Made by a program: the position numbers and the translations under genes
NCBI RefSeq assembly: GCF_014697545.1
Contig: NZ_JACJSA010000010.1
Span: 124,001 to 188,000, forward strand
DNA: 64,000 nucleotides
Source of the DNA: Oscillatoria sp. FACHB-1407
Lineage (GTDB): Bacteria > Cyanobacteriota > Cyanobacteriia > Elainellales > Elainellaceae
Direction: 5' to 3'
Notes under the pieces: model-generated
Told to the model about the DNA's origin: nothing
The model's database searches: none
What the model saw: only the letters and a program-made list of their open reading frames with translations
Part shown: piece after piece, positions 5,644 to 50,215 of the stretch
Layout of the letters: each line of letters opens with the position of its first letter
Numbering within the stretch: position 1 is the stretch's first letter

Positions 5644-5770
5644 ATATAAAGCAACCAGGGGGTTGGTTAGGTCGGGGTGCAGGGATTCTACCCCTGACTG
5701 GAGGCTGCGCCCCCACACTCCCTTGTATTAATTGTCTCGACTGTATTAATTGTCTCGACAGTTGTGATAG
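5644..5770 (+). repeat. GC-rich dispersed repeat with internal 18-bp tandem duplication
   Basis: Begins TATAAAGCAACC, includes GTTAGGTCGGGGTGCAGG and ends GACAGTTGTGATAG, matching the layout of 12459-12561. Inside, TGTATTAATTGTCTCGAC is present twice in tandem (5724-5741, 5742-5759). It sits between tetR and devB, upstream of the palindromes. Confidence 0.75.
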
Positions 5771-12323: not shown

Positions 12324-12458
12324 AAACTGACAGGGATCAACGTACTAAATAGTGGCAGTTTCAATTAAAGCAATCCCCACTTAACCCACCTTAAAGAGTG
12401 AAGTGTCTGCTTTACCATGCATAAAAGGGGCGATCGCACCACGCTCTTGAACCAGTTA

Positions 12459-12561
12459 TATAGCAACCGAAGGGTCGGTTAGGACGGGGTGTAGAGGTTC
12501 TAAGCCTGGCTGGGGCTATGCCCTACACTCCCTGGTTTTAACCGTCTCGACAGTTGCTATA
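12459..12561 (+). mobile_element. TATAGC-ended GC-rich element (103 bp)
   Basis: Starts TATAGCAACCG and ends with GTTGCTATA, so the terminal nine bases are a perfect inverted repeat (TATAGCAAC/GTTGCTATA). Interior GGTTAGGACGGGGTGTAGAGG relates it to 1440-1528 and 5644-5770. It overlaps the next element by four bases (TATA, 12558-12561). Confidence 0.75.
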
Positions 12562-12662
12562 GCCGCAGCCACATGCGACGAGGCGGAGGCGAGTCAGGAA
12601 GCTTTTCCAGCATCCGGGTTTGCGCCATTGCCTTTGCCTTAAGCGTTCTGATCAAAGCTATA
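12558..12662 (+). mobile_element. TATAGC-ended 105-bp element, copy A
   Basis: TATAGCCGCAGCCACA ... CAAAGCTATA. The same element is found at 41195-41298 and 50111-50215, and 5' truncated-end-intact at 30069-30150. The shared core is GGAGGCGAGTCAGGAAGCTT and GCCATTGCCTTTG. An internal inverted repeat (GTCAGGAAGC near the left, GTTCTGATC near the right) makes a stem possible. Non-coding. Confidence 0.8.
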
Positions 12663-27929: not shown

Positions 27930-28595
27930 ATGAGTTCTTCAGATTCCCAAGTTTTGACGCCGACTAACCGCACAACAGTGAAACGCTTGCCGATGCGGGG
28001 TAACTACGATCGCACCGAGATTGAACAAATCCTGGATGAAGGGCTAATTTGCCAGGTGGGTTTTGTGGTGAATGGGCAGCCCTTTGTCATTCCTACCGCT
28101 TATGGGCGCGTTGGAGATAAGCTCTACATCCACGGTTCACCTGCCAGTCGAATGCTACGAACCCTGCAACAGGGTGTAGAGGTCTGTGTCACCGTAACTT
28201 TATTGGATGGTCTGGTGCTGGCTCGCTCCGCTTTTCATCACTCGATGAACTACCGCTCAGTAGTGTTGTTTGGGACTGCCACCCTGGTCAACAACCCAGA
28301 TGAAAAGTTAGAGGCACTCAAGGCATTTACCGACCATATCATTCCGGGACGTTGGGAAGACGTGCGATCGCCCAACCGTCAGGAGCTAGCCGGAACCCTG
28401 GTGCTGTCCCTGCCCATCACCGAAGCCTCCGCTAAAGTTCGCACGGGTGGTCCCTCTGACGACGAGGGAGACTACGCTCTCCCAACCTGGGCTGGAGTGA
28501 TTCCATTGCGGGTTGTGGCTGATGCGCCAATTGCAGATGAGCAACTCACCTTAGCGATTGAGCCTCCCGATTATGTGACTCACTATCAGCGGTGA
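27930..28595 (+). CDS. pyridoxamine 5'-phosphate oxidase-like flavin protein
   Basis: 221 residues from ATG 27930 (MSSSDSQVL...); the frame opens 13 codons earlier. PNPOx-like split beta-barrel family that binds FMN or heme-like cofactors. Visible family features: RLPMRGNYDRTEIEQILDEGLICQVGFVVNGQPFVIPTAYGRV and YIHGSPASRMLRTL, then SAFHHSMNYRSVVLFGTA. These are nitroimidazole-resistance-like/FMN-binding proteins, often of unknown substrate. It is divergent from the MocR regulator and probably controlled by it. Confidence 0.88.
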   Translation: MSSSDSQVLTPTNRTTVKRLPMRGNYDRTEIEQILDEGLICQVGFVVNGQPFVIPTAYGRVGDKLYIHGSPASRMLRTLQQGVEVCVTVTLLDGLVLARSAFHHSMNYRSVVLFGTATLVNNPDEKLEALKAFTDHIIPGRWEDVRSPNRQELAGTLVLSLPITEASAKVRTGGPSDDEGDYALPTWAGVIPLRVVADAPIADEQLTLAIEPPDYVTHYQR

Positions 28596-28605
28596 TGGTT
28601 ATTGG

Positions 28606-28738
28606 TTAGGGGTCAATGGTCAGGGGTCAATAGTCAATGGTCAATGGTCAATGGTCAGGGGTCAGTAGTCAATGGTCAATGATTAGTGGTCAATGGTCAA
28701 TAGTCAATGATTAGTGGTCAATGGTCAATGATTAGTGG
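28606..28738. repeat. heptamer-type minisatellite (TCAATGG units)
   Basis: A run built from variants of the heptamer GGTCAAT (GGTCAAT/GGTCAGG/AGTCAAT/GATTAGT) without a fixed longer period. The same heptamer block recurs near 32050-32096. Such short tandemly repeated heptamers are known in cyanobacterial genomes. Not coding. Confidence 0.85.
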
Positions 28739-28774
28739 CATTAACTCTATTCCTCACTCCATCACCCTTACACC

Positions 28775-28838
28775 CCCTCACTCCCCAACTCCCTCACTCC
28801 CCAACTCCCTCACTCCCCAACTCCCTCACTCCCCACTC
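28775..28838. repeat. 16-bp tandem repeat (three copies and a partial)
   Basis: CCCTCACTCCCCAACT occurs three times in perfect tandem (28775-28822) plus a partial fourth, ending 18 bases before the MFS start. The extreme pyrimidine bias means the leader of that gene has no obvious ribosome site. Confidence 0.9.
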
Positions 28839-28855
28839 CCCACTCCCCCCAATTT

Positions 28856-30022: not shown

Positions 30023-30777
30023 AACAGGACTTACGCAGTTAGAGGGTCTTCCCGAAGTTCCCCTCGTTTATAGCCGTAGTCACATTTGATGGGGCGGAGG
30101 CGAGTCAGGAAGCTTTCCCAGCATCAGGGTTTGAGCCACAACCTTTACCCTCTTTCCCTTGGTAACTACCGTGTACACACAAGTTTTCATAGCCCCCTAC
30201 ATCCCCCAATTTTGGGGGACTTTGAGGCTGTATCAAGGGTCTTGCCCCCACCAGGAGCACCCGTACTTGGAACCGATGCGAAGCGCGTCTTTGGATTAAC
30301 CAAAACACCTTCTAATAGGGGGTTTGGGGGAGACTCCCCCAATGCCTGGTTCTCGAACTCATTGCGGTAACCGAGTGTCTTATTGACAAAGCAAAGATGT
30401 CTGTACATCGTAGCCCTTGGCAAGGGGAGGTTGGGAAGGGTCAGATGCGTAGCTCTAAAAATTTGAACTCTCATTCAAGATTTGTGTGCACGGTAGCTTG
30501 CTCAGGGGGACCACAGGGGATCGTGATTTCGCGTAGCTTCACACTGAATTGCTATAAGTCCTATGTCATACCAATTTGAATTGGCTTCGCTGCACATGAT
30601 TCCGTAAGGGCGTTTCGCGAAACGCCCCTACCCAGTGATCGGCCACAATCAAACATTAAATCGGTATAAAGAGAGATCAACGAAAAGGCTTACGTCTCAA
30701 TTCTCAACCCTATTCTCTTTTCTTTTTTCTCTCTTCCTTTTTCTTTTTTTCCTTTCTTTTTTCCTTCTTCCCTGTTC
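30023..30777. other. 755-base intergenic region made of dispersed repeats
   Basis: No convincing gene. Contains a TATAGC element fragment (30069-30150), a CCCCCAATTTTGGGGG palindrome near 30204, a GGGGGAGACTCCCCC palindrome near 30326, the GGGCGTTTC-GCGAAACGCCC hairpin at 30609-30629 and a long pyrimidine-rich tract (30710-30775) up to the stop of the next minus-strand gene. Reading frames across it have no family features. Confidence 0.7.
30069..30150 (+). mobile_element. TATAGC-ended element, copy B (3' end lost)
   Basis: TATAGCCGTAGTCACA, then GGAGGCGAGTCAGGAAGCTT and a TTTGAGCCA region match the 105-bp element at 12558-12662. The right end (GCTATA) is missing, replaced by other sequence after about 30150. 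Confidence 0.7.
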
Positions 30778-32722: not shown

Positions 32723-32898
32723 AGTTAGCTGGCTTCGCAGAAAGCTCTTACACCTACAGATGATAGCGGTTGGCTTTCCTAATCAATCCCAACAGTGATT
32801 GGTTGAGGCGGTGAGTGAAGTGATTGAGTGGAGTCGAGAAGCTTATAAAAATACTAGTCAGTTACACACCTCAGTGGTATTTATAGATATCAATATAT

Positions 32899-32991
32899 AT
32901 AGCAATCCCAAATGGGTTGTGAGAGGCGCACCCCTCCGGGGTGCGCCTCTCACAACCTGCTAAGCTCACAAATGATTTAGGACTGCTATAG
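32899..32991 (+). mobile_element. TATAGC-ended hairpin element (93 bp)
   Basis: TATAGCAATCCCAAAT at the left and ATTTAGGACTGCTATA at the right are inverted repeats (13 of 16 symmetric positions). The centre is a perfect 20-bp inverted repeat, GGTTGTGAGAGGCGCACCCC with a TCC loop. It lies upstream of the hybrid kinase (start 33057), within an AT-rich region that is itself weakly palindromic. Confidence 0.8.
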
Positions 32992-41194: not shown

Positions 41195-41298
41195 TATAGC
41201 CGTAGCCACATCGATAGGGCAGAGGCGAGTCAGAAAGCTCCTCCAGAACCAGTGGTTGAGCCATTGCCTTTGTCCTCAACTTTCTGGCCAAAGCTATA
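41195..41298 (+). mobile_element. TATAGC-ended 104-bp element, copy C
   Basis: TATAGCCGTAGCCACA ... CAAAGCTATA, with GAGGCGAGTCAGAAAGCTCC and GCCATTGCCTTTG in the same order as 12558-12662. The rest of the 587-base gap 41057-41643 has no recognisable gene. Confidence 0.8.
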
Positions 41299-42136: not shown

Positions 42137-42201
42137 TCGGGATCAAGTTGCAGGGGTGGAACCCTTGGCTGGAGGAGCAGCCCTCACACCCCTTTGTCCT
42201 G
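42137..42201 (+). repeat. GC-rich dispersed repeat
   Basis: Core GCAGGGGTGGAACCCTTGG followed by GCAGCCCTCACACCCCTTTG, close to the 1440-1528 and 44711-44766 copies. Confidence 0.6.
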
Positions 42202-42379
42202 AATAAGTGGCGGTAGCTACACATACAGTCAACCGCGATCGCACTGGTACTGCACAGTGAATTTGACAGGGGAGGTGTAAAGGATTCAGGGGGTCGAGGA
42301 ATGGCTAGGGGATAATTCGGTCACTCCTCCACTCCTCTACCCCTCTACGATCGGCTGTCATAATTCCTATGGTCAACTA

Positions 42380-44608: not shown

Positions 44609-44710
44609 CCCTAAATCTCAACGCTCCCTTCTAAGAATTCCCACAGAGCTATTATTTTGCTCATAACAACAAAGTATTACAGCCATGTGCAAGTTGGTTC
44701 AGTCCACGGA

Positions 44711-44766
44711 TGGCAGGGGTGAAACCCCGGGTTGGGGCGCAGCCCCCCACACCCCTTTGTATAGCT
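44711..44766 (+). repeat. GC-rich dispersed repeat
   Basis: GGCAGGGGTGAAACCCCGG and GGGGCGCAGCCCCCCACACC repeat the core of the 1440-1528 family. It stands immediately left of the second 109-bp element, and the first 109-bp element also has a copy of this family next to it. Confidence 0.65.
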
Positions 44767-44771
44767 GTAGC

Positions 44772-44880
44772 GGTGGTGTTCCAAACCTGTTGATAACCTC
44801 TGTAAGACCCCCTGTAGTCCCCCTTACCAAGGGGGACGGCGACAGCCGGGGGTTAGTAGCAACAGATCTGAAACACTACC
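44772..44880 (+). mobile_element. 109-bp MITE-like element, copy 2
   Basis: Identical over 109 bases to 1292-1400, with GGT(G/A)GTGTT terminal inverted repeats. Same orientation. It lies in the 359-base gap between RecQ and MsrA, downstream of both coding regions. Confidence 0.75.
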
Positions 44881-50110: not shown

Positions 50111-50215
50111 TATAACCGTAACCACAGTCGATAGGGTGGAGGCGAGTCAGGAAGCTTTCCTAGCATCCGGGTTTGAGCCATTGCCTTTGCCTCAGGCTTT
50201 CTGACCAAAGCTATA
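50111..50215 (+). mobile_element. TATAGC-ended 105-bp element, copy D
   Basis: TATAACCGTAACCACA ... CAAAGCTATA, otherwise like 12558-12662 (GGAGGCGAGTCAGGAAGCTT). It lies between sqdB and sqdX, so if the two genes share an mRNA the element would be in the transcript. Confidence 0.8.

Follow-up and report, generated by a model that had tools for sequence, protein, structure and literature searches.

Short repeats with TATAGC...GCTATA ends and different interiors in Oscillatoria sp. FACHB-1407 are very probably non-autonomous elements of the IS630/Tc1-mariner family

The window analysed here, a stretch of 64,000 nucleotides (C10:124001-188000) from the draft genome of Oscillatoria sp. FACHB-1407 (8.13 Mb in 66 contigs), contains two short repeats that lie side by side on the forward strand: a copy of family F4 at 12459-12561, with TTAGGAC-type ends and a hairpin core, and a copy of family F1 at 12558-12662. 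A first-pass annotation had seen a TATA common to both neighbours, and it is indeed there, as their overlap at 12558-12561. The same annotation held that all segments of this kind begin TATAGC and end GCTATA. This is true of the pair and of a complete F1 copy at 41195-41298, but not of two other F1 copies (all on the forward strand): the one at 30069-30151 starts TATAGC and has lost its right end, and the one at 50111-50215 still ends GCTATA and has a left end mutated to TATAAC. A 93-bp hairpin element does carry both ends, one base away from where it had been placed (32898-32990, forward strand, rather than 32899-32991), and belongs to family F2b, with a long interior palindrome. The window further holds an F3 copy on the reverse strand, with the shared hairpin core and a left end mutated to CATAGC (1425-1528), and, on the forward strand, a degenerate F4 copy with the same core (5647-5744), a degenerate F4 copy or core remnant (2768-2850), an F6/core remnant (42144-42220), and a core remnant that ends in TATAGCTGTAGC (44706-44771).

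Other repeats share the window with these elements. A perfect 109-bp repeat, GTGGTGTTCC...AACACTAC, is an unrelated MITE-like element present at 1292-1400 and 44772-44880; its second copy stands directly behind TATAGCTGTAGC and appears to interrupt the TATAGC-type element there. Typical short tandem repeats form two adjacent arrays, at 28581-28752 and 28740-28854, one made up of a heptamer of the GTCAATG type and the other of an octamer-type unit (ACTCCCTC/ACTCCCCA), and the HIP1 octamer GCGATCGC occurs 110 times. An Rfam scan of the window returned one tRNA and nothing else, and a plasmid search with the abutting pair or with the core gave no match.

For detailed counts we combined the window with contig C1 (798 kb), and used the whole genome for counts of the paired pattern. 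When 60 ends from C1 and the window were aligned inward from TATAGC, the hexamer by which they had been chosen, similarity extended further in, mostly with T at position 9, G at 11, CA at 13-14 and TTAGGAC at 21-27. The common end is thus a 27-bp inverted repeat, TATAGCnnTnGnCAnnnnnnTTAGGAC, with a second group of the form TATAGCRATCCTAAATSATTTGTGAAA; since both ends of each element bear the motif, they are true terminal inverted repeats. Two related end types can be told apart, TTAGGAC in F1 and F3-F6 and TTGTGAAA in F2. By their interiors, the elements can be sorted into at least six families (F1, F2 with two sub-families, F3, F4, F5 and F6), so that the proposal of families with different interiors and the same ends is confirmed, with one 27-bp motif running across them. 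Full or partial family matches number about 96 on C1, some of which are differently ended elements having only the core in common, and 11 in the window. Like MITEs in general, the elements are short, non-coding and multi-copy with terminal inverted repeats, and two 115-bp F5 copies are identical while their flanks differ.

The first-pass annotation had proposed looking for an insertion sequence with the same ends, and such elements exist, intact and of the IS630 family, in this genome as well as in relatives and on plasmids. Searching the genome for the DDE_3 family yielded three IS630-type transposases. One of them, L018 (contig C44), measures 1120 bp from end to end and has TATAGCAATCCTAAATCATTTGTGAAAA and the inverted copy of this sequence as its boundaries. 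Of the 21 positions that follow TATAGC, F2 ends share 16 to 19 with the ends of L018 (16 and 18 for the element at 32898-32990). L018 is accordingly the probable partner of F2, judging from these ends. The other two matches, L016 and L017, lack TATAGC ends and were set aside as partners. No TTAGGAC-type transposase for F1 and F3-F6 was found in the 66 contigs of the draft, so that their partner here may be absent, lost or situated in an assembly gap.

Elements with TTAGGAC-type ends are found elsewhere. Relatives carry IS630 elements of 951-963 bp with such ends (L019, L020, L021, L024 and L112), and plasmids carry IS of 958-999 bp in Nostoc (two), Leptolyngbya boryana, Acaryochloris and Gloeothece; four of these five are annotated as IS630 family transposases, and the L. 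boryana ends are the most divergent, with TTGCGG in place of TTAGGA. Several relatives rich in TTAGGAC-type MITEs (G003, G007, G021 and G027) likewise yielded no more than transposase remnants, distant homologues or nothing, and both negative results weigh against mobilisation by this family. Beyond TATAGC, individual MITE families resemble individual IS: F3 is similar to L021, the left end of F6 and the right end of F5 to L090, F2 to L018, and the F4 copy of the window to L112 (G039) and L093 (Gloeothece), with 16-17 of 21 positions identical. In shuffles, these resemblances gave p values from <0.0005 to 0.03, and the F1 ends matched IS630 terminal repeats with p=0.001 and 0.01.

Domain content agrees with the family assignment. 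All three transposases that we tested in Pfam (L018, L021 and L024) contain PF13358 (DDE_3), together with PF01710 (HTH_Tnp_IS630) in L021 and L024 and HTH_33/HTH_23 in L018. The C-terminal halves of L021 and L024 score above the cut-off of the NCBIfam IS630 model NF033545, and that of L018 falls just below it (97.3 vs 100). A weak sequence match to SETMAR agrees with an IS630/mariner identity; SETMAR contains a mariner-derived transposase domain. In L018, L020, L021 and L024 the transposase is encoded by two ORFs with a run of A residues at their junction (L018:1430-1445, L021:1415-1425, L024:1412-1422), which suggests translational frameshifting in these cyanobacterial IS630 elements. Being split over two frames, the L018 transposase can be called only putatively active, a point that we count against mobilisation by this family. 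Near-identical IS copies at different sites suggest recent activity.

Because L018 is the sole resident IS630 element found with TATAGC ends, one could attribute every family, F1 and F3-F6 included, to a single resident L018-type transposase. We regard this as unlikely: positions 7-27 of F1 and F3-F6 are closer to other IS lineages, and those lineages exist in relatives. The earlier suggestion of one mobilising machinery therefore stands in a narrower form. A common IS630 transposase family is retained, and the presence of at least two end specificities, the TTAGGAC type and the TTGTGAAA type, speaks for one transposase family rather than one machine.

Empty sites define the target. In Acaryochloris sp. 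'Moss Beach', plasmid pMB02 holds an IS at a site that is empty in pMB03 (CACTTG-TA[TAGC...GCTA]TA-TCACT vs CACTTG-TA-TCACT), from which it follows that the element proper is TAGC...GCTA and that its insertion duplicates a TA. For the MITEs, we joined the flanks of a copy and searched the genome itself for the product. The F3 copy at C1:443324 lies in a repeat whose eight displayed paralogues all have a single TA (GGCGGT-TA-AAAC). At C1:553451, an F5 copy has entered the terminal TA of an F1 element (AAAATA-TA-GCTTTGG), of which C1:506992 preserves a paralogue without the insert. Three further insertions, in which the target copy has TA and its paralogues have CA or GA at that place, are supporting cases. 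F3 and F1 insertions have as one of their targets a repeat of high copy number (...AATTCGGGATCAGGATTTCGGCGGTTAAAACCGCCGCTATC..., 110 bp or longer), present at C1: 713333, 185505, 796663, 603530, 421852 and elsewhere.

The same target explains how two elements can come to abut. With TA as the duplication, the F4 element proper of the window would span 12461-12559, flanked by TA at 12459-12460 and 12560-12561, and the F1 element proper 12560-12660, with its right TA at 12661-12662. If F4 had inserted into the terminal TA of F1, one would expect TA-TA-TAGC...GCTA-TA-GC, with TATATAGC as the left boundary and GCTATAGC where the two elements join. The window has the former at 12457-12464 and the latter at 12556-12563. 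The additional TA at 12457-12458 would then be the outer target duplication of the older F1 element, displaced by the insertion, and the locus would previously have read ...CCAGT-TATAGCCGC.... From this geometry we infer that the pair arose by insertion of F4 (12459-12561) into the terminal TA of F1 (12558-12662), and a 4-bp duplication common to both is not needed. Its arrangement is that of C1:553451, where the empty site exists and where the insertion falls exactly in the terminal TA of another element, and the proposal of insertion into the end of an earlier element is thereby supported.

Across this genome and related ones, nine clear pairs share TATA, and five of them have the extra TA, the expectation per pair being about 0.29 (P ~0.09, calculated by hand). 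By hand count, an outer TA is present in any case at about 16% of the single ends on C1, so the pair count alone is not significant and we relied on the empty sites instead. The four pairs without the extra TA count against nested insertion, unless they result from later loss or from composite transposition. G007 has three places (L098, L104 and L107) at which one and the same element adjoins another, each time at the same end of it, which suggests that terminal TAs are recurrent targets. Composite transposition of this pair was considered and rejected: the extra TA is present at two of the three places and the A part has diverged less than the B part, which fits repeated insertion into the same end better.

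On a different reading, the elements would be GC...GC units that duplicate a 4-bp TATA, with the abutting pair having one such duplication in common. The exact TATA overlap in the window and the pairs without an extra TA are what this would produce. The extra TA at 12457-12458 is not, and the single TA at the empty sites of the Acaryochloris IS and of MITEs F3 and F5 refutes a TATA target duplication, unless a TATA-duplicating subgroup exists. We hold this reading to be very improbable.

Taken together, the shared ends, the IS that match them, the duplicated TA and the empty sites argue for a cut-and-paste model with an IS630 transposase acting in trans. We consider it very likely that the TATAGC...GCTATA segments are non-autonomous MITEs of the IS630/Tc1-mariner family, with 27-bp terminal inverted repeats on which an IS630-type transposase would act in trans, with insertion at TA, and with nesting. 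By analogy with ISY100, the transposase would bind the terminal repeats in trans, excise the element and insert it at a TA. Only the ends, about 27-30 bp, would be needed, so that many unrelated interiors could be carried, which would explain why the same ends enclose different middles. The terminal TA of an element would itself be a possible target, so that elements nest and abut as GCTATAGC. A common structural constraint on the termini, which the first-pass annotation had offered as its other explanation, is not needed.

The strongly palindromic character of many interiors would also be expected of REP/REPIN-like hairpins moved single-stranded by a HuH (RAYT) transposase, or of fixed structural elements such as terminators or mRNA hairpins. 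The position of the elements points the same way, as only 2 of 27 element midpoints on C1 fall inside ORFs of at least 150 aa, yet these make up 79% of the contig. REP/REPIN elements produce no target-site duplication, whereas TA is duplicated here, and the same-ended IS with DDE transposases and the empty sites refute HuH-type transposition as the mode of movement; we give these alternatives hardly any weight. A secondary role of the IS630-type MITEs as RNA hairpins is possible.

That the ends are chance matches or an effect of base composition, as the shortness of the hexamers and an only about twofold excess of single TATAGC and GCTATA in the window (30 vs 12.7 in shuffles) might suggest, is refuted and practically without probability, because TATAGC-N76..106-GCTATA occurs 205 times genome-wide against 11 for the reversed control and 4 times in the window against 0.01 expected, and because the motif reaches 27 bp and IS elements carry it too. 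A comparison with random expectation was one of the two that the first-pass annotation had named as able to refute its claim, and the claim passed it. Among the leading hexamers, TATAGC has the highest observed/expected ratio for inverted pairing at 80-125 bp (28 vs 1.4 on C1), and paired ends on C1 cluster at a spacing of 90-119 bp.

The IS630-type ends are shared well beyond this genome. A stringent end motif, TATAGCNNTNGCCANNNNNNTTAGGAC, was used to scan about 85,000 species of bacteria and archaea, and among the matches listed all 80 loci are cyanobacterial. At least 87 matches were obtained, 48 of them with a partner end; 44 of these delimit segments of 77-234 bp, whose interiors are of many different kinds, and four delimit longer ones. 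The paired pattern exceeds its control in several relatives (198/20 in G021, 181/15 in G027, 138/11 in G007 and 74/14 in G003) and does not rise above it in many others. Outside this genome F1 interiors are almost lacking, with a weak or partial match in only 3 of 40 relatives. In Nostoc, Anabaena and Symploca, some TATAGC MITEs (L159, L185, L186, L193 and L197) have interiors with short tandem repeats, for example CTGTCACC or CCTTCTGCC, beside one end.

Just as one type of end encloses different interiors, one interior is found with different ends. F3, F4 and F6 have in common a core of nested inverted repeats of about 50 bp (GGGGTGCAGGGGTGGAACCCCTGGCTGGGGGCGCAGCCCCCACACCCC), of which C1 and the window hold 48 full or partial copies. 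Its ends there are of the TATAGC type, TTAGTAC...GTACTTAG or CTAGTAC...ACACTAG; in relatives we found it with TACAGC...GCTGTA (G023), with CTAAGTAG...CTACTTA (G039), and with AGGATC...GATCCT and CTAGT...ACTAG (both in G030). A second MITE class on C1, with ends (C)TTAGTACAACTCGTCG / CTAAGTACTGCTATTC, has the core of F3, F4 and F6 (L048-L087; e.g. C1:174145 and C1:295072). A third, with ends CTAGTACAGCAAAAAATAAG / CTAGTGTTGCGAACAC, has a similar core (C1: 200803, 635715, 700281, 782230 and 11304), and its ends are reminiscent of those (CTAGTGTT) found near the L040 IS630 transposase. One apparent chimera, at C1:313078-313168, joins a TATAGC left half to a CTTAG-type right half. Judging from this one case, nested insertion followed by recombination between two cores may give elements new ends. 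We tentatively raise the possibility that these MITEs are two-part modules, in which a core is reused among at least six unrelated end types in several genera and re-ending by core recombination lets the hairpin cargo outlive any one transposase. Covariation in the core is weak, and we therefore make no claim of a selected RNA structure. A model of the core matches 2 of 117 genomes in an even sample of cyanobacteria; the core is thus patchy, and a phylum-wide functional RNA is not supported.

Many small repeats of bacteria are classified by what lies between their ends and remain 'type II' MITEs, with no known mover. Sorting by ends would bring hundreds of unlike cyanobacterial repeats from many genera into one IS630-driven class, and provides a testable mover, a simple annotation pattern and an explanation for abutting repeats. 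The core shared by differently ended MITEs adds the testable idea that small repeats may escape the loss of their transposase by changing ends, and this interchangeable core is the part most worth following.

A literature search with the end hexamers returned only unrelated papers, and the nearest known systems were compared by their published descriptions. ISY100 (ISTcSa) of Synechocystis PCC 6803 is an IS630/Tc1-mariner element that duplicates TA and for which 30 bp of each end suffices (PMC2170065), which is what MITEs require. By its description it resembles the IS found here in being about 950 bp long, in having short imperfect terminal repeats (24 bp) and in encoding an N-terminal helix-turn-helix and a DDE-type domain. 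It differs in having one 282-aa ORF rather than two ORFs that meet at an A-run (PMC2170065).

The MITEs of Anabaena sp. 90, another filamentous cyanobacterium, are likewise small, non-coding, present in many copies, mostly intergenic and bounded by terminal inverted repeats, and were called type II because no resident IS has their ends (PMC3542288). By description, the elements studied here differ in having recognisable partner IS, which occur in relatives and, in the case of F2, within the genome itself. Nezha is cited as a further case of small non-coding repeats with terminal inverted repeats in filamentous cyanobacteria (Zhou et al, 2008). In the available part of the account of the Anabaena variabilis palindromes (PMC3733652), the consensus TATAGGAnTnnnATTTGATTnnTGAAA is close to the F2 end TATAGCAATCCTATTTGATTTGTGAAA and the interior is foreign, as it is here; those interiors are GTAG-15 REP dimers, unlike the ones found here, and that part gives neither an IS630 link nor a TA duplication. 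The elements described here belong to a known kind, and what is unusual about them is their modularity.
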